DNA from: Desulfurivibrio alkaliphilus AHT 2
GTDB lineage: Bacteria; Desulfobacterota; Desulfobulbia; Desulfobulbales; Desulfurivibrionaceae
Length of the DNA stretch: 64,000 nt
Direction: 5' to 3'
Assembly (NCBI RefSeq): GCF_000092205.1
Contig: NC_014216.1
Coordinates: forward strand, 1,803,742 to 1,867,741
Below the pieces are notes generated by a model. That model searched no databases. It had not been told where the DNA came from and saw only the letters and a list, made by a program, of their open reading frames with translations. Made by a program: the position numbers and the translations under genes. Of the stretch, positions 18,165 through 58,509 are shown piece after piece. The first letter of the stretch is position 1. Every line of letters begins with the position of its first letter.

Positions 18165-19486
18165 GCGGCCGCGGCCGGGTCACCAGGCGGCCCCGGCGCG
18201 AGATCCTGGGCTGGGCGATGTTTGATTTCGCCAACCAGGCCTACACCCTGCTGATCATCACCGTGGTGTTCGGCGACCTGTTCACCACGGTAATTGTCGG
18301 CGACCGCGGGGATGGCTATCGGCTGGGCAACCTGCTCTGGAGCCTGGCCCTGGCCGGCAGCTATTTTTTGGTGGTACTGGCCGGCCCGGTCTGCGGCGCG
18401 GTGATGGATTACACCGCCAGCAAAAAACGTTTTCTGTTTGCCAGCTACCTGGTTACGGTGATTGCCACCGCCCTGCTGGTGCTGGTCACCCCCGGCGACA
18501 TCGCCCTGGGGCTGACCCTGATCGTAATCTCCTGCTTTGCCTATTCCATCGGGGAAAATTTCATCGCCTCCTTCCTGCCCAGTCTCGGCCCGCCTGAGGA
18601 TCTGGGCAAAATCTCCGGTTTCGGCTGGGCCTTGGGTTACATCGGCGGCCTGCTGGCCGCCGCCTTTACCCTGGCCTTTCTGGGCAATGCCACGGCGGAA
18701 AACTTTGAGCGGATCCGCTGGGTCGGCCCATTTGCCGCCGGCTTTTTTCTCTTTGCCGCCCTGCCCACCTTTCTCTGGCTGCGGGAACCGGGCACGGCCC
18801 GGCCGCGACCGGTCGGGCAAAGCTACCTGAAGTTGGGCCTGCAACGCACCGCCGCCACCCTGCGGGACATCACCCGCTTTAAAGACCTGGCCATTTTCCT
18901 GCTGTCGGTGCTCTTTTCCATGGCCGCCATCTATATCATTATCAGCTTCACCTTCATCTACGGCGCCCAGGTCATCGGCTGGGACGAAAAAACCCGCAAC
19001 CTGATGTTCATCGTGGTGCAGCTCACCGCCGCCGCCGGGGCCCTGGGGTTCGGTTTCCTGCAGGACCGCCTGGGAATTAAGGCCATGTATCAGGTTACCC
19101 TGATGCTCTGGGTGGTGGCCATTGTCGCCATCTGGGCCACCCCCGGGCTGACCGTCTGGCTCAACCGGGTCAGCGGGCTGGCCTGGGAGGCGCAACATTT
19201 TTTCCTGGTGGTCGGCTGCCTGGCGGGAATCAGCCTGGGCGCCACCCAGTCCGCCAGCCGTGCCCTGGTTGGCCTCTTCTCACCGGCCGACAAAAGCGCC
19301 GAATTTTTCGGTTTTTGGGGACTGGCCAACAAGCTGGCCGGCATGCTGGGCATTGCCGCCCTGGGGGTGTTGCAAGCCGCAGTGGGCCTGCAGGAATCGA
19401 TTCTGCTCTGCGCCTTCCTCTTTATTGTGGCCTTTACTATTTGCCTGCCGGTAAATCAGGCCCGCGGCCAAGCCGCCGCCCGGTAA
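18143..19486 (+). CDS. MFS permease of the UMF1/Atg22-like family
   Basis: A 447-residue inner-membrane protein with about 12 transmembrane helices. The N-terminal WAMFDFANQAYTLLI and the loop GAVMDYTASKKRFLF are marks of the UMF1 (Atg22-like) MFS group. The substrate is unknown; relatives have been linked to amino acid efflux. It overlaps the preceding gene by 22 bases. Its stop codon TAA lies inside the terminal GGTAAGC of a family A repeat. Confidence 0.88.
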   Translation: MAQPGAISGRGRVTRRPRREILGWAMFDFANQAYTLLIITVVFGDLFTTVIVGDRGDGYRLGNLLWSLALAGSYFLVVLAGPVCGAVMDYTASKKRFLFASYLVTVIATALLVLVTPGDIALGLTLIVISCFAYSIGENFIASFLPSLGPPEDLGKISGFGWALGYIGGLLAAAFTLAFLGNATAENFERIRWVGPFAAGFFLFAALPTFLWLREPGTARPRPVGQSYLKLGLQRTAATLRDITRFKDLAIFLLSVLFSMAAIYIIISFTFIYGAQVIGWDEKTRNLMFIVVQLTAAAGALGFGFLQDRLGIKAMYQVTLMLWVVAIVAIWATPGLTVWLNRVSGLAWEAQHFFLVVGCLAGISLGATQSASRALVGLFSPADKSAEFFGFWGLANKLAGMLGIAALGVLQAAVGLQESILLCAFLFIVAFTICLPVNQARGQAAAR

Positions 19487-19592
19487 GCGGTCACGGGGCA
19501 CCCCACCTTGCGGCGATCAGCCCGGCTTGCGTACTGATGTAAGCGGCGCCGGTCTGCTTGCCGCAATCTGGGGCACCCCGCAACCGCTTACC
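19482..19592. repeat. family A palindromic element, full length (111 bp)
   Basis: The left arm begins GGTAAGCGG and the right arm ends CCGCTTACC, with complementary GGGGCACC/GGGGTGCC-type segments inside. The centre contains GTAC, as in other copies. The first bases supply the stop codon of the upstream MFS gene. Confidence 0.75.
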
Positions 19593-19679: not shown

Positions 19680-19772
19680 ATGGGCACATCCGGCCGCTAC
19701 AAACAAAGCCCACAACGCACGCCGAGAACCTGCAGACCAAAGGCATGGCGTATTGGCCGTAACAAGCCGTAA
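19680..19772 (+). CDS. candidate small basic protein, 30 residues
   Basis: An ATG preceded by GAGGGGA opens a 30-codon frame rich in arginine and lysine (six R and three K) that ends in ...RIGRNKP. Its TAA stop comes from the left end of the family A element at 19768. It lies between two family A copies, after a short A-rich stretch. Coding is unproven and no family is recognised. It could be a chance frame. Confidence 0.3.
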   Translation: MGTSGRYKQSPQRTPRTCRPKAWRIGRNKP

Positions 19773-19874
19773 TCGTCAGCAGTGCCGCAGGTTGCGGCAA
19801 GCGAGACGGCGAAGCGTACATCAGTACGTGAGCCGGCTCGATCGCCGCAAGATGCGGTGCTGCTGACGATTACG
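19768..19874. repeat. family A palindromic element, full length (107 bp)
   Basis: The arms are CGTAATCGTCAGCAG on the left and CTGCTGACGATTACG on the right, perfectly complementary. The core reads almost the same as the copy inside cbiD. The right end provides the stop codon of cvpA on the minus strand, and the left end that of the small frame at 19680. Confidence 0.78.
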
Positions 19875-30841: not shown

Positions 30842-30951
30842 CGTAAACGTTCAGCAGCACTGCATCTTCGGGCGATCAGCCAGGCTTACGTACAGGGAGT
30901 ACGCTGCGCCTGGCTGCTTACCCGAACCTGCAGCACTGCTGAACGTTTACG
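30842..30951. repeat. family A palindromic element, full length (110 bp)
   Basis: Arms CGTAAACGTTCAGCAG and CTGCTGAACGTTTACG are perfectly complementary. The core is in the opposite orientation to the copy at 19768 and close to that at 45428. It separates btuD from the nrdD leader. Confidence 0.78.
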
Positions 30952-45427: not shown

Positions 45428-45537
45428 GGTAATCGTTCAGCAGTGCCGCAGGTTCGGGCAAGCAGACCGGTGCAGCGTACCCCCTGTACGTAAGCCGGGC
45501 TGATCGCCCGAAGATGCGGTGCTGCTGAACGATTACC
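45428..45537. repeat. family A palindromic element, full length (110 bp)
   Basis: Arms GGTAATCGTTCAGCAG and CTGCTGAACGATTACC are perfectly complementary; TTCGGGC and GCCCGAA extend the stem inward around a GTAC centre. It lies between the two permease genes and supplies the TAA stop of the upstream one. Its end arms equal the 26-bp palindrome at 9522. Confidence 0.82.
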
Positions 45538-48122: not shown

Positions 48123-48159
48123 TTCAGCCCTTTCCATAAAAAGTGTAACTGATCACGGG

Positions 48160-48208
48160 GTAAGCGTTCACAGGGTGCCGCAAGATGCGGTGCCCTGTGA
48201 TCGCTTAC
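48160..48208. repeat. family A element, short 49-bp form
   Basis: GTAAGCGTTCACAGGG and CCCTGTGATCGCTTAC form a 23-bp stem with three mismatches and an AGA loop. The internal part of the full element is missing. It lies one base after the stop codon of the FmdE-like gene and 37 bases before the binding-protein start. Confidence 0.7.
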
Positions 48209-50437: not shown

Positions 50438-50465
50438 AAAAAACCAGGTCGCTTGGAGCCGGGAC

Positions 50466-50596
50466 GGGGGCCGCGGCAACCGGTAGCGGCGGGTTCGGCG
50501 GCGGCCGGGCGCATGGACGCGCAGGAGGCCGCCGCCGCCTCGGAGGCGGGCAGGATGCCCGCCGAGAATGAGCCGCTACCGGTTGTCGCGGCCCCC
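50466..50596. repeat. family B inverted-repeat element, copy 1 (131 bp)
   Basis: Arms of 25 bp (50466-50490 and 50572-50596) match at 24 positions and contain CGGCAACCGGTAGCGGC. The middle includes a GGCGGGCAGGATGCCCGCC hairpin. It fills the gap between cbiK and the permease gene, in the orientation opposite to copy 2. Confidence 0.82.
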
Positions 50597-50688
50597 ACCC
50601 CCTACCCACAACCAAATACATGGGCGCTTCACAGCCGAGCAGCCTGTTGAATGTTTACCGACAACCTTAAAGAAAAACGGAAAATTTC

Positions 50689-53628: not shown

Positions 53629-55202
53629 CCGCCAAAACTGTAGAGCCTTTGGTTGTTGGAAGGGGGTGGGGGGCGCGGCAACCGGTAGCGGCTCATTCTC
53701 GGCGGGCATCCATGCCCGCCTCCGAGGCGGCGACGGCCTCCTGCACATCCATGTGCCCGGCCGCCGCCGAACCCGCCGCTACCGGTTGCCGCGCCCCCCG
53801 TCCAGAATTCACGCAGCTTGCACATTGCCCTGAAACGCCCCCCAAAGGAATCCTGGTGGCCGGCACCCACAGCGGCTGCGGCAAGACCACCGTAACCCTG
53901 GGCCTGCTGGCCGCCCTTACCCGGCGCGGCAACCCGGTACAGCCTTTCAAGTGCGGCCCGGACTTCATCGACCCCACCTTGCACCAACTGGTCACCGGTC
54001 GCCATTCCTGCAACTTGGACCCCTGGATAACCGGGCCCGAGTACGTCCGGCAACTCTTTCAACGCCACTGCCGCCCCGGCGAGCTGGGCCTCATCGAAGG
54101 GGTGATGGGGATGTTCGACGGCGGCAACTCTTCCGCCGCCGCCCTGGCCCGGCTGCTGGCCGTCCCGGTGGTGCTGGTTCTGGATGCCAAGGCGGCGGCG
54201 GAAAGCGCGGCGGCGGTACTCAAGGGTTTCGAGGTTTTTTCCCCGGATATCGCCCCGGCGGCGGTGATCCTCAACCGGGTGGGCAGCGAGCGCCACCGGC
54301 GGCGACTCTGCCGGGCCATCGAGCAGCACTGCCGAAGCGAGATCATCGGCACGCTGCCCCGCGACCTGGAGTTCAGCATCCCCGAGCGCCACCTGGGGTT
54401 GCGGATGGGTTCGGAATCACCGCTGTCAGCGGCGGCCCTGGACAAGCTGGCGGCGGCCATTGAACAGCATGTCGGGCTGGACCGACTGCTGGCGTTGGCT
54501 GGCAACATGGAGTCGGACCTGAAAGATGGGGATGCAAGTAAGCCCGTCGGGGGCGGTGCGTCGATCCCGGTACGGCTGGGAGTGGCCAAGGATGCGGCCT
54601 TTTGCTTCTACTACCAGGATAACTTTGCGTTGCTGGAAGCGGCCGGGGCCGAACTGGTTTTCTTCAGCCCGCTGGCCGACCATGCCCTGCCGCCCGGTTT
54701 GGACGGTCTTTATCTGGGCGGCGGTTACCCGGAACTGCACGCCCGGCAACTGGCCGCCAACCGGGAAATGTGCTCGAGTATCCGGGCGTTTGCCGAGGGC
54801 GGCGGGGTGATCTACGGCGAGTGCGGCGGCTTCATGTACCTCTGCCGGGGTATCGAGGATTTCGACGGGGTTTTGCATCCCCTGGCCGGCATTTTCCCGG
54901 TGCGGGCCGCCATGGGCCGCCGCCTGGCCGCGCTGGGGTACCGGGAGGCGGTCACCACCCGGGATGGGCTGTTCGGCCCCGCCGGCACCCGGCTGCGGGG
55001 GCACGAGTTTCATTATTCCCGCACCGAAGCCATGCCGGAACATCTGGAGCAACTGTACCACAGCACCAACCTCGACGGCGGCGCGGGAGCGTCGGGCTGG
55101 CGCCGGCACAACACGGTGGCCGGCTACCTGCACCTGCATTTTGCCTCCAACCCGGAGGCCGCCGCCGCCTTCGTCAAAAATTGCCGAGACCATAAACCAT
55201 GA
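53625..55202 (+). CDS. cbiA: cobyrinate a,c-diamide synthase CbiA with repeat-derived N-terminus
   Basis: Amidates carboxylates a and c of cobyrinate using glutamine and ATP. The ATP-binding P-loop is at 80-89 (GTHSGCGKTT), normally near residue 10 in the family, and the amidotransferase nucleophile is C400 (YGECGGFMY). The ATG overlaps the previous stop (ATGA). Residues about 15-59 are encoded by a family B element, so the first 75 residues are not homologous to CbiA. A later start inside the element (two in-frame ATGs) is possible. The rest is full length. Confidence 0.93.
   Translation: MTAKTVEPLVVGRGWGARQPVAAHSRRASMPASEAATASCTSMCPAAAEPAATGCRAPRPEFTQLAHCPETPPKGILVAGTHSGCGKTTVTLGLLAALTRRGNPVQPFKCGPDFIDPTLHQLVTGRHSCNLDPWITGPEYVRQLFQRHCRPGELGLIEGVMGMFDGGNSSAAALARLLAVPVVLVLDAKAAAESAAAVLKGFEVFSPDIAPAAVILNRVGSERHRRRLCRAIEQHCRSEIIGTLPRDLEFSIPERHLGLRMGSESPLSAAALDKLAAAIEQHVGLDRLLALAGNMESDLKDGDASKPVGGGASIPVRLGVAKDAAFCFYYQDNFALLEAAGAELVFFSPLADHALPPGLDGLYLGGGYPELHARQLAANREMCSSIRAFAEGGGVIYGECGGFMYLCRGIEDFDGVLHPLAGIFPVRAAMGRRLAALGYREAVTTRDGLFGPAGTRLRGHEFHYSRTEAMPEHLEQLYHSTNLDGGAGASGWRRHNTVAGYLHLHFASNPEAAAAFVKNCRDHKP
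53668..53799. repeat. family B inverted-repeat element, copy 2 (132 bp)
   Basis: The 25-bp arms (53668-53692 and 53775-53799) are perfectly complementary. Read on the minus strand it is closely similar to copy 1 along the whole length. It lies inside the 5' end of cbiA without breaking the frame. Confidence 0.88.
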
Positions 55203-55843: not shown

Positions 55844-57223
55844 ATGGCGCGGCGCCTGAGAAGTGGCTATACCACCGGGGCCTGCGCTGCGGCGGCGGCC
55901 AAGGCGGCGGTGATGTTTGCCGGGTCCGGCACGGCGCCGGAACAGGTGGAGATTCCTTTTCCCGACGGCAGCCGCCACGCCTTCTCCGTGCACCGCAGTT
56001 GGCAACAGCCGAGCCAGGAGGAAGGAAAGTCTCAGCCAGCCGGGAAATTCGGGGAATTGGGGTCAGACACCAATTTGGGGCAACAACCGGCCGCTACCGG
56101 CTTTGCCGCCTCCGTCATCAAAGACGCCGGGGATGACCCCGATGTCACCAACGGGGCGGAGATCGTCGCTCTGGTAGAACCGGCGGCCAAGTTTGAGTCC
56201 CTGACCGGTTGCGGCCAAGATTGCGTAGAACTGGAGGACCGCGATTCCGACCCACCGCCAAAGGCGGGATCAAGGGAACAACCCCAAGTAAGCGGTCACG
56301 GGGTGCCGCAGATTGTGGCAAGCGGGACGGCGAAGCGTACCTCAGTACGTGAGCCGGCCCGATCGCCGCAAGATGCGGTGCCCCGTGATCGCTTACAAAT
56401 ATTGCTTTGCCGGGGGGACGGGGTGGGCTGGGTGAGCAAGCCCGGCCTGGCCATTGCGCCGGGGGAGCCGGCCATCAACCCGGTGCCCCGGCAAATGATA
56501 GGGGCGGCGGTGCGGGAGGCCCTGGCGGAAACCGGCGCGCACACTGCCCGCAATTTTTGCCCGGCGGCCCTGCGCATCACCATCGCCATCCCGGGAGGGG
56601 AAGAGCTGGCGACCAAGACCTTGAACCACCGCCTTGGAATCATCGGCGGGCTATCCATCTTGGGGACCACCGGCATCGTCCGCCCGGTTTCCGCCGAGGC
56701 CTGGACCGCCACCATCGCCGCCTCGCTGGACGTGGCCAGGGCGGCGGGGCTTGGGGAAGTGGTGCTGGCCACCGGCCGGACTTCGGAAAAGGGCGTGCAG
56801 CGGCGGCTCAAGTTACCCGACGAGGCCCTGGTGATGATGGGCGATTATTTGCATTTTGCCCTTACCGAGGCGGGCAAGCGCGGTTTCAGGCAACTGCACC
56901 TGGCCGGGATGTGGGCCAAGATCGTCAAGGCGGCCCTCAAAATTCCCCAGACCCATGTTCGCCACGGGGCCCTGGAGGTGCGGCAGGCCGTCGAACTGCT
57001 GGCGGAGCTGGGGGCTTCCCCGGAGCTGACGGCACAACTGACCGGCGCCAACACCGCCCGGGAAATCCTTAGCCGCCTGCAAGCAGCCGGGGCCGATGAG
57101 CTGGTCGACGGTGTCTGCCGCCGCGCCGCTGCCTACGCAACAGCAACGGCCGGCATCCCGGTAACCGTCTACCTGGTGGACAGCCATATGAAAATAGTGA
57201 CCCGGGTGGAGAGCGGACAATGA
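55844..57223 (+). CDS. cbiD: cobalt-precorrin-5B C1-methyltransferase CbiD with in-frame insertions
   Basis: The SAM-dependent C-1 methylation step of the anaerobic corrin pathway. Family motifs are LRSGYTTGACAAAAAKAA, SVIKDAGDDPDVTNGAEIV, GVGWVSKPGLAIAPGEPAINPVPRQMI and FCPAALRITI-like sequence. The protein is 459 residues, about 80-100 longer than usual. The extra parts are about residues 47-82, with a short palindrome in the DNA, and about 115-187, of which 149-185 come from a family A repeat. All conserved blocks stay in one frame, so it may be functional. Translation starts directly after the cbiC stop. Confidence 0.93.
   Translation: MARRLRSGYTTGACAAAAAKAAVMFAGSGTAPEQVEIPFPDGSRHAFSVHRSWQQPSQEEGKSQPAGKFGELGSDTNLGQQPAATGFAASVIKDAGDDPDVTNGAEIVALVEPAAKFESLTGCGQDCVELEDRDSDPPPKAGSREQPQVSGHGVPQIVASGTAKRTSVREPARSPQDAVPRDRLQILLCRGDGVGWVSKPGLAIAPGEPAINPVPRQMIGAAVREALAETGAHTARNFCPAALRITIAIPGGEELATKTLNHRLGIIGGLSILGTTGIVRPVSAEAWTATIAASLDVARAAGLGEVVLATGRTSEKGVQRRLKLPDEALVMMGDYLHFALTEAGKRGFRQLHLAGMWAKIVKAALKIPQTHVRHGALEVRQAVELLAELGASPELTAQLTGANTAREILSRLQAAGADELVDGVCRRAAAYATATAGIPVTVYLVDSHMKIVTRVESGQ
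56055..56075. repeat. short palindrome inside cbiD
   Basis: AATTGG and CCAATT flank GGTCAGACA, close to the GGGGTCAGAC-type motif often seen near small palindromic repeats in bacterial genomes (from memory, not searched). It lies within the first non-homologous stretch of CbiD. Confidence 0.45.
56288..56396. repeat. family A palindromic element inside cbiD (109 bp)
   Basis: Left arm GTAAGCGGTCACGGGG and right arm CCCCGTGATCGCTTAC pair; the core GCGAAGCGTAC and CAGTACGTGAGCCGG is the same as in the copy at 19768. The reading frame passes through without a stop, encoding about 37 residues. Confidence 0.88.
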
Positions 57224-58509
57224 CCACAACAAGCATCATCGTTATCGGCGTTGGCGACCAGGGCCTGAGCGACCGGCAACTCCGGGCCCTGGCCGGCTGC
57301 CGCTGCCTGGTTGCCGGTGAGCGCCACCGCCCCTTGGTCGCCGGGTTGCAAATTCCGGTGGTGCCGGTCACGCCGCTAAAGGGTGCCCTGACCGCCATTA
57401 AAGAACATCTGCCCCAGGGCAAAGTGGGAGTGCTGGCCAGTGGCGATCCCCTCTTTTTCGGGATCGGCCGCACCCTGCTGCACCATTTCGCCCCGGAGCA
57501 ACTGGAGTTCATGCCGGCTCTCTCCACCGTGCAGCAGGCCTGCGCCCGTTTCCGGCTGCCTTGGGACGATGCCCGGGTCATCAGCCTGCACGGCCGAGAA
57601 GCCGGCGAGACCGACCTGCTGTTGAACACCGGCGCCCTGCTAGCGGCGCCCAAGACCATCATCTTCACCGACGGCCGCCGCTCGCCGGATTTGATCGCCA
57701 CCCGGCTGCGGGACTACCTGGCGTTGGTGGGCGCCGACCGGCTGCTGGCCGCCACCCGGGTGCTGGTGGCGGAAAACCTGGGCGGTGCGGGAGAACGGCT
57801 GATCACCGGCAGCCTGGGAGAGATCGCCGGGCAACGGTTTGCACCGCTGAATATAATGGTGCTGCAACGGGCCGCAGAATCCGCCGGCGGCGGTCGGATC
57901 AGCGCCGATCTGCCCGCCGCCTTGGGCCTGCAAACCGAGGAAATCCGCCACAGCCGTGGGCTGATCACCAAGGATGAGGTGCGGGCCGTAACTCTGCACA
58001 AGCTGCGCCTGCCCGCCACCGGCGTCTGCTGGGATATCGGCGCCGGCAGCGGCTCGGTAAGCCTGGAGGCATCCCGGCTGGCTCCCGGCCTGGCCATATA
58101 CGCCGTGGAGCGACGAGCGGAAGAGTTGGCCAACATCAAGGCCAATATCGTCAAGCTGGCCGCCTACACCATCCGGCCGGTGGCCGGCGAGGCCCCGGCG
58201 GCCCTGGCCGCCCTGCCGGACCCGGACCGGATTTTCATCGGCGGCAGCGGCGGCCGCCTGGCGGAGATTCTCGCCGCCGCCCTGCCCCGCCTGCGTCCCG
58301 GCGGCCGGGTGGTGATCAACGGGGTCACCGCCGCCACCAAAGAAGAGGCCCCGCGCCTGCTCCGGCGGCACGGCTGCCCGGTGGAAGTAACGGAAGTCAG
58401 CATCAGCCGCCGGTGGGAGACGGACGCCATAACGGCGGACGATACGGCCGGGGCCGGCACCGCAACCAGGCTCAACCCCATCAACATTATTTGCGGCCAT
58501 AAACAGTGA
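57220..58509 (+). CDS. cbiET: cobalt-precorrin-7 methyltransferase / decarboxylating C15-methyltransferase (CbiE-CbiT fusion)
   Basis: A 429-residue fusion equal in layout to CobL. The N-terminal CbiE part (about 1-205) has the tetrapyrrole methylase GVLASGDPLFFGIG motif. The C-terminal CbiT part has SAM-binding DIGAGSGSVSLEASRL near residue 271 and IFIGGSGGRLAEIL. Together they methylate C-5 and C-15 and remove the ring C acetate carboxyl. The four-base overlap with cbiD suggests coupling. Confidence 0.95.
   Translation: MTTTSIIVIGVGDQGLSDRQLRALAGCRCLVAGERHRPLVAGLQIPVVPVTPLKGALTAIKEHLPQGKVGVLASGDPLFFGIGRTLLHHFAPEQLEFMPALSTVQQACARFRLPWDDARVISLHGREAGETDLLLNTGALLAAPKTIIFTDGRRSPDLIATRLRDYLALVGADRLLAATRVLVAENLGGAGERLITGSLGEIAGQRFAPLNIMVLQRAAESAGGGRISADLPAALGLQTEEIRHSRGLITKDEVRAVTLHKLRLPATGVCWDIGAGSGSVSLEASRLAPGLAIYAVERRAEELANIKANIVKLAAYTIRPVAGEAPAALAALPDPDRIFIGGSGGRLAEILAAALPRLRPGGRVVINGVTAATKEEAPRLLRRHGCPVEVTEVSISRRWETDAITADDTAGAGTATRLNPINIICGHKQ

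Follow-up and report, generated by a model that had tools for sequence, protein, structure and literature searches.

An in-frame palindromic element in cbiD of Desulfurivibrio alkaliphilus is probably a translated MITE moved by an IS66-family transposase

In the 64,000-nt stretch of the Desulfurivibrio alkaliphilus AHT 2 genome analysed here (the window, genome positions 1803742-1867741), the host gene cbiD, which encodes cobalt-precorrin-5B C1-methyltransferase, carries a real, in-frame, mobile palindrome, a translated miniature inverted-repeat element (MITE) that acts like the palindromic elements of Rickettsia and is probably moved by IS66. With a probability of roughly 85%, we read the insert as a MITE with GTAA...TTAC ends and an 8-bp target duplication, most likely IS66-moved and translated when it lies in phase. 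A sequence-only reading had already pointed to the palindrome; the IS66-type ends with 8-bp duplications and the in-frame insertion in further genes go beyond that reading. The element has no transposase of its own, and its insertion duplicates 8 bp of target around the GTAA...TTAC ends. We propose that it is moved by an IS66-family transposase supplied in trans; that a copy in the right phase would add 39 to 54 translated residues and leave the gene unbroken; and that copies in exposed loops, linkers or gene ends would be tolerated and persist.

The host gene is a 459-aa open reading frame (ORF) at 55844-57223 on the forward strand, recognised by the ORF itself, profile matches and alignment, and the 109-nt element (GTAAGCGGTCACGGGG ... 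CCCCGTGATCGCTTAC) lies on the same strand in frame +0, exactly at 56288-56396 as first described. It encodes 36 full residues (149-184) and extends one base into codon 185, in agreement with the initial estimate of about 37 residues, and its peptide in CbiD is VSGHGVPQIVASGTAKRTSVREPARSPQDAVPRDRL. The hairpin is near-perfect, with pairing over almost all 109 nt; the folding energy of the bare 109 nt is -84.7 kcal/mol, and that of the element with five flanking bases on each side is -86.2 kcal/mol, against a mean of -42.2 for 200 shuffles (z -12.6, none as good). Both flanks match PF01888 (1.6e-80, two stretches), which bears out the description of an insertion between conserved CbiD blocks of an otherwise intact gene, and CbiD scores 327 bits against TIGR00312 (cut-off 200) and 342 against NF000849, just under the cut-off of 348. 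A probable 5' tag of the mobile unit occupies 56264-56287 on the forward strand, as judged from the tags of other copies; only a decayed trace of it is recognisable, with the GATCA.GGG core retained, and no 8-bp target duplication can be recognised at the cbiD copy. The element is a repeat, with 51 matches listed in its own genome, some of which represent one copy matched on both strands.

A pseudogene or an assembly artefact is scarcely credible as the source of these features. Nothing speaks for it beyond the oddity itself, and the genome is a single contig of 3,097,763 bp, equal to the published size (PMC5016858). The same cbiD insertion is present in the separate genome of a congener (G002), the flanking codons are constrained, and murF has no second copy. 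In the window genome (G000), the sole strong CbiD match among those listed is the window gene, and the weaker ones listed (9e-14 and weaker) are element peptides, so that the concern that cbiD might be a pseudogene replaced elsewhere falls away. The sequence-only reading placed cbiD at an essential step of corrin synthesis, a role that is putative here: a congener of the window organism grows without added vitamins (PMC12142623), in a paper that is not known to test cbiD. A term search of the Nature 2025 and D. dismutans papers found CbiD, cobalamin and precorrin absent from their main text.

Uninserted relatives were sought, and all 59 CbiD ORFs that a length and motif filter retained from 80 loci of other named genomes lack the element; their matching segment spans 34-61 residues versus 101 in the window. 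When 16 CbiD proteins of the family and order were aligned, the element appeared in those of the window and the congener alone; the residues are thus not a general property of related CbiD proteins, as could have been feared. The insertion in cbiD may have been a single shared event that would predate the split of these two genomes. In the CbiD of L011, L015, L017 and L022 (sister genus), the same loop is filled by an unrelated GC-rich repeat; L026 has a short piece there, and 9 of the 16 aligned proteins have neither the element nor the GC-rich repeat. The CbiD loop therefore seems to accept inserts repeatedly, given the unrelated repeat in the sister genus and the mere short piece in L026. 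The unrelated repeat was observed in frame in this loop at L014, L018 and L020 of the sister genus as well as at the four loci named above (L011, L015, L017 and L022).

An AlphaFold2 model of CbiD, the one host protein modelled, supports the loop position suggested at the outset. Mean pLDDT is 84, with 296 of 459 residues at 90 or above. The strands 127-129 and 185-190 enclose a stretch, residues 142-171, where pLDDT drops below 50; the blocks adjoining the insert reach only 59-83. The sole structure that Foldseek returned for this model at E 0.001 or better was the solved CbiD 1sr8. In the model the insert lies in a low-confidence, probably disordered loop, and its tolerance may be a matter of position. 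A second, unrelated insertion in cbiD was observed at 56040-56100 (about residues 57-88), with low model confidence and a counterpart in the congener only among 15 aligned relatives; the window has a single occurrence of the motif GGGGTCAGACACCAATT, at 56059-56075, where 0.02 would be expected by chance, and the congener has the motif at two sites upstream of its cbiD.

The cbiD copy belongs to a dispersed family. In the window, nhmmer found another copy at 19483-19591 (reverse strand) and three of a divergent subfamily at 19770-19871 (forward), 30843-30950 (reverse) and 45429-45536 (forward), together with a 64-nt internal-deletion derivative at 48145-48208 (forward), which retains both ends and was recognised by nhmmer (48177-48208) and by its end motifs. 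In the stretches examined with nhmmer, the element borders are sharp, GTAA...TTAC, and the mobile unit usually carries an added 5' tag of 24 or 43-46 nt. Searches with the element peptide gave 92 matches in the window genome, 69 in the congener and at least 150 in each of the copy-rich drafts G001 and G013, these totals being matches and not counted copies; G003 and G004, which belong to the same genus, gave none. Among 27 family genomes, 12 had a forward-peptide match and 11 a reverse-peptide match; in a phylum-wide draw of genomes, to which G000, G002 and G007 belong, matches occurred in 4 of 395. Exact end motifs numbered 39 in G000, 171 in G001, 32 in G002, 106 in G013, 4 in G007 and 1 in G014, with none in G003 or G004 and zero in a reversed-pattern control. 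The element is short and multi-copy, contains no transposase gene and is bounded by terminal inverted repeats; it is a MITE.

A known structured RNA family was rejected as an identity for the sequence, as the three matches, two of them to microRNA precursors, were all far under the gathering scores. Phage and plasmid collections gave no match to the 133-nt stretch 56264-56396. Weak, stop-containing peptide matches (E 7e-5 and weaker) were seen in one distant genome of the phylum (L221, G379) and may be old relics or chance. Another long palindrome family is present at 53648-53814, with an inverted copy at 50451-50616. In the cbiA/cobB ORF, whose start codon is putative, a copy of the other-family palindrome takes up part of the first ~63 codons, ahead of the profile match starting at residue 74; the congener's orthologue has instead an N-terminal stretch resembling the cbiD element family.

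Insertion has left clear marks in the flanking DNA. Among 137 unique full copies, a set that mixes copies picked by peptide in long frames with copies picked by DNA score, 49 have an exact 8-bp target duplication (0.05% in a swapped-flank control) and 78 match at seven or more of the eight positions (1.6% in the control). The length of the duplication is eight because the ninth flanking base matches in only 14 and 16 of the 49, near chance, and 37 of these 49 copies start with GTAA and end with TTAC. Two empty sites support insertion. In murF of the window genome, an essential gene, a 24-nt tag and the 109-nt hairpin lie inside the gene between two copies of TTGCCGAT; murF is uninterrupted in all eight relatives shown (G002, G001, G004, G006, G009, G013, G014 and G018), as seen in the DNA of G002 and in the proteins of the other seven, and no second murF was found in the window genome. 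At the other site, cbiE of the congener, a 109-nt element stands in frame and is flanked on both sides by AGGCCGAC; the corresponding gene of the window, cbiET (57220-58509, forward strand), is element-free, with the empty site near 57613.

These features point to IS66. The hallmarks of IS66 are a terminal repeat starting GTAAGCG and 8-bp repeats, and the definition of an IS66-derived MITE given in the same source (PMC11946415) describes what was found here, GTAA ends with an 8-bp duplication; the end of ISDge4, GTAACTGCTCAGCA, is likewise reported with an 8-bp repeat (PMC12898284). Profile PF03050 detected one IS66 gene each in the window genome and the congener, where the tips of the resident IS66 are GTAAGCGCTCA and its paired ends GTAAGCGCTCARYRAACCCC have GTAAGCGNTCA in common with the element; no target duplication was found at the resident IS66 of either genome. 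In the copy-rich drafts G001 and G013 this profile detected no IS66 transposase, and in G004, a genome without element copies, it picked up IS66 fragments. The element shares with IS66-family insertion sequences the GTAA-type terminal repeats and the 8-bp target duplication, and with the resident IS66 the tip GTAAGCGNTCA, but differs in having no transposase and a 109-nt hairpin in place of genes, the likeness being one of tips. An IS66-family transposase most likely moves it in trans. Movement as a REP/BIME-like element by a RAYT (Y1) transposase is very improbable: the genome does contain two Y1 transposase genes, but no family copy lies within 1.5 kb of either (L039 and L040 among the stretches searched), and the 8-bp duplications and GTAA...TTAC at both ends differ from REPs, which are described with a GTAG tag at one end (PMC3733652). 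REP/RAYT mobilisation was rejected on these grounds, the ends and the distance from both Y1 genes.

The resemblance to Rickettsia elements raised by the sequence-only reading is borne out at the level of behaviour, as copies lie in frame in unrelated conserved genes. With an NCBIfam profile above the cut-off, the hosts are murF in the window genome, folC, queA, pepN, lnt and mutL in G001, and cbiE and rlmN in the congener. In murB of G001 (L096:1415-2413, forward strand), the NCBIfam match is under the cut-off and the ORF ends at the contig end; two element copies share this gene, the second of them cut by the contig end. A partial copy is present in pdxA of G001, and the forward-frame hosts of G013 are a PBP4-type carboxypeptidase, an RlmD-like methyltransferase and an exopolyphosphatase, with matches under the curated cut-offs for the last two. 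N-terminal placements were seen in dxr, tmk, mutS, hemC, nifB and cobQ, where the start codons are putative. Of the 26 ORFs run against NCBIfam, 24 matched a family at the set E-value and two (L072 and L094) matched none; for several host genes, the best stretch shown has a score on one side only, and the other was judged by eye. The copy in rlmN of the congener is read in the reverse frame, adds 141 bases and is flanked by an 8/8 duplication; it disproves a strict one-frame rule.

The majority of the copies examined are intergenic or sit at gene ends, and a minority lie inside coding sequence. This statement is drawn from the count for the window genome and from a sample chosen by DNA score. 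In the former, by our own reading, 2 of 48 copies examined are gene-internal (cbiD and murF), and the remaining long ORFs seem to run antisense to the gene or to lie upstream of it. In the latter, which comprises 40 copies of G013 (full rows by score) and 11 of the congener (among the higher-scoring rows, cbiD omitted), three copies (L084, L088 and L256) lie inside a gene according to the profiles, and others are at gene ends. The first G001 and G013 loci were picked for the forward peptide in long frames, and both the in-gene share and the forward share are therefore overstated in them. A reverse-strand peptide search yielded at least nine frames of 300 aa or more, and the eight inspected (L118-L125) were all judged to be antisense or 5' of a gene; the matches listed did not include the rlmN case.

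The lengths and frames of the copies are compatible with translation. The recurrent totals, duplication included, are 141 nt (133+8) and 162 nt (154+8), and the cbiE copy amounts to 117 nt (109+8), all divisible by three; a 158-nt form (43+107+8) is not. Of the exact-duplication copies, 31 of 49 have a total divisible by three and 18 do not. A forward open frame is found in 92 of the 103 copies of exactly 109 nt and a reverse one in 96, against 33% per frame after shuffling, a descriptive count over related copies that were partly selected for open frames and that mix both kinds of sample. Because the recurrent totals divide by three and each strand usually offers one stop-free frame, an in-phase copy would be translated and would not break the gene. 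We tentatively consider a further possibility, that this is a gene-tolerant transposon: the commonest totals (141 and 162) are multiples of three and both hairpin strands are open, so insertion might be survivable in either orientation, with selection acting on the element for harmlessness and not on the host protein.

The ribosome might alternatively skip the hairpin by translational bypassing, giving an enzyme without the peptide and making the open frame incidental. The hairpin is indeed very stable, and untranslated palindromic elements are described in genes of a yeast mitochondrion (PMC6649704). However, bypassing needs neither an open frame nor a length divisible by three, and the gene-internal copies listed are open and in frame. 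This argument is partly circular because the listing reports only open frames; independent evidence against bypassing comes from the downstream halves of cbiD and murF, which are intact, and we regard bypassing as quite improbable. If the element is translated as we propose, its peptide would be present in the enzyme.

Outside the element, cbiD evolves under constraint (dN 0.13, dS 0.39 between the window genome and the congener). Within the element, dN is 0.092 and dS 0.105 over 37 codons, small numbers that include three synonymous changes over 30.5 sites, and all eight nucleotide differences preserve pairing, one pair having changed on both sides. Synonymous divergence in the element amounts to roughly one quarter of the value for the remainder of cbiD. 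Because synonymous changes are few and all eight differences respect the hairpin, these data suggest conversion among copies, as one candidate explanation, or constraint at the DNA level, and not selection on the peptide. Retention of the insertion in both genomes could also mean that the peptide has been domesticated, the loop serving CbiD and being kept by selection on the protein. This is unlikely, as dN and dS are similar in the element while the rest of the gene is constrained, as the preserved pairing indicates DNA-level conservation or conversion and not peptide selection, and as the model contains no confident fold at the element.

With such a hairpin element in a vitamin B12-synthesis gene, this soda-lake bacterium adds a new example of mobile DNA being translated rather than gene-breaking. 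Protein-coding palindromes are best known from intracellular Rickettsia; the present case is free-living, cultivated and closed-genome, and it comes with empty sites, target duplications, a named candidate for the transposase, and MurF among the enzymes that hold in-frame insertions. Two old questions thereby become testable, namely how such elements insert and how proteins take dozens of foreign residues at once, and some of the odd long loops and N-terminal extensions annotated in these genomes are transposon-derived. Our literature search found no paper linking Desulfurivibrio to miniature inverted-repeat elements and no paper bringing together most of the IS66, MITE and in-frame insertion themes.

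Several known systems share part of this behaviour. ERIC, Correia/NEMIS and the Coxiella QMITEs are likewise non-autonomous, with open frames fused in frame to genes (PMC2229807, PMC5896051). However, the termini of ERIC and Correia are given as TA in the table of PMC2229807, in contrast to GTAA...TTAC here, and the QMITEs are described with a fusion at a gene end and with insertions in hypothetical proteins, whereas several copies of the present element lie mid-gene in core enzymes. Coding palindromes of nematomorph mitochondria are also stable inverted repeats in intact coding sequence (PMC6649704), but they are described as perfect repeats without the signature of a transposing family, unlike the dispersed family with target duplications found here. 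The closest known counterparts are the Rickettsia palindromic elements, with which the Wolbachia palindromic elements are grouped on the basis of a paper's title. As described in reviews and later papers, the Rickettsia elements are palindromes of about 100-150 bp that lie in frame inside unrelated conserved genes, with a peptide conserved among copies (PMC10969869, PMC2229807). Their target duplication is left open, marked '?', in the table of the review (PMC2229807), whereas the cbiD element family has clear 8-bp duplications and IS66-like ends. The likeness is one of behaviour: the element works like the Rickettsia palindromic elements but is not filed among them, because its host, D. alkaliphilus, is a free-living member of the Desulfobacterota and not Rickettsia.
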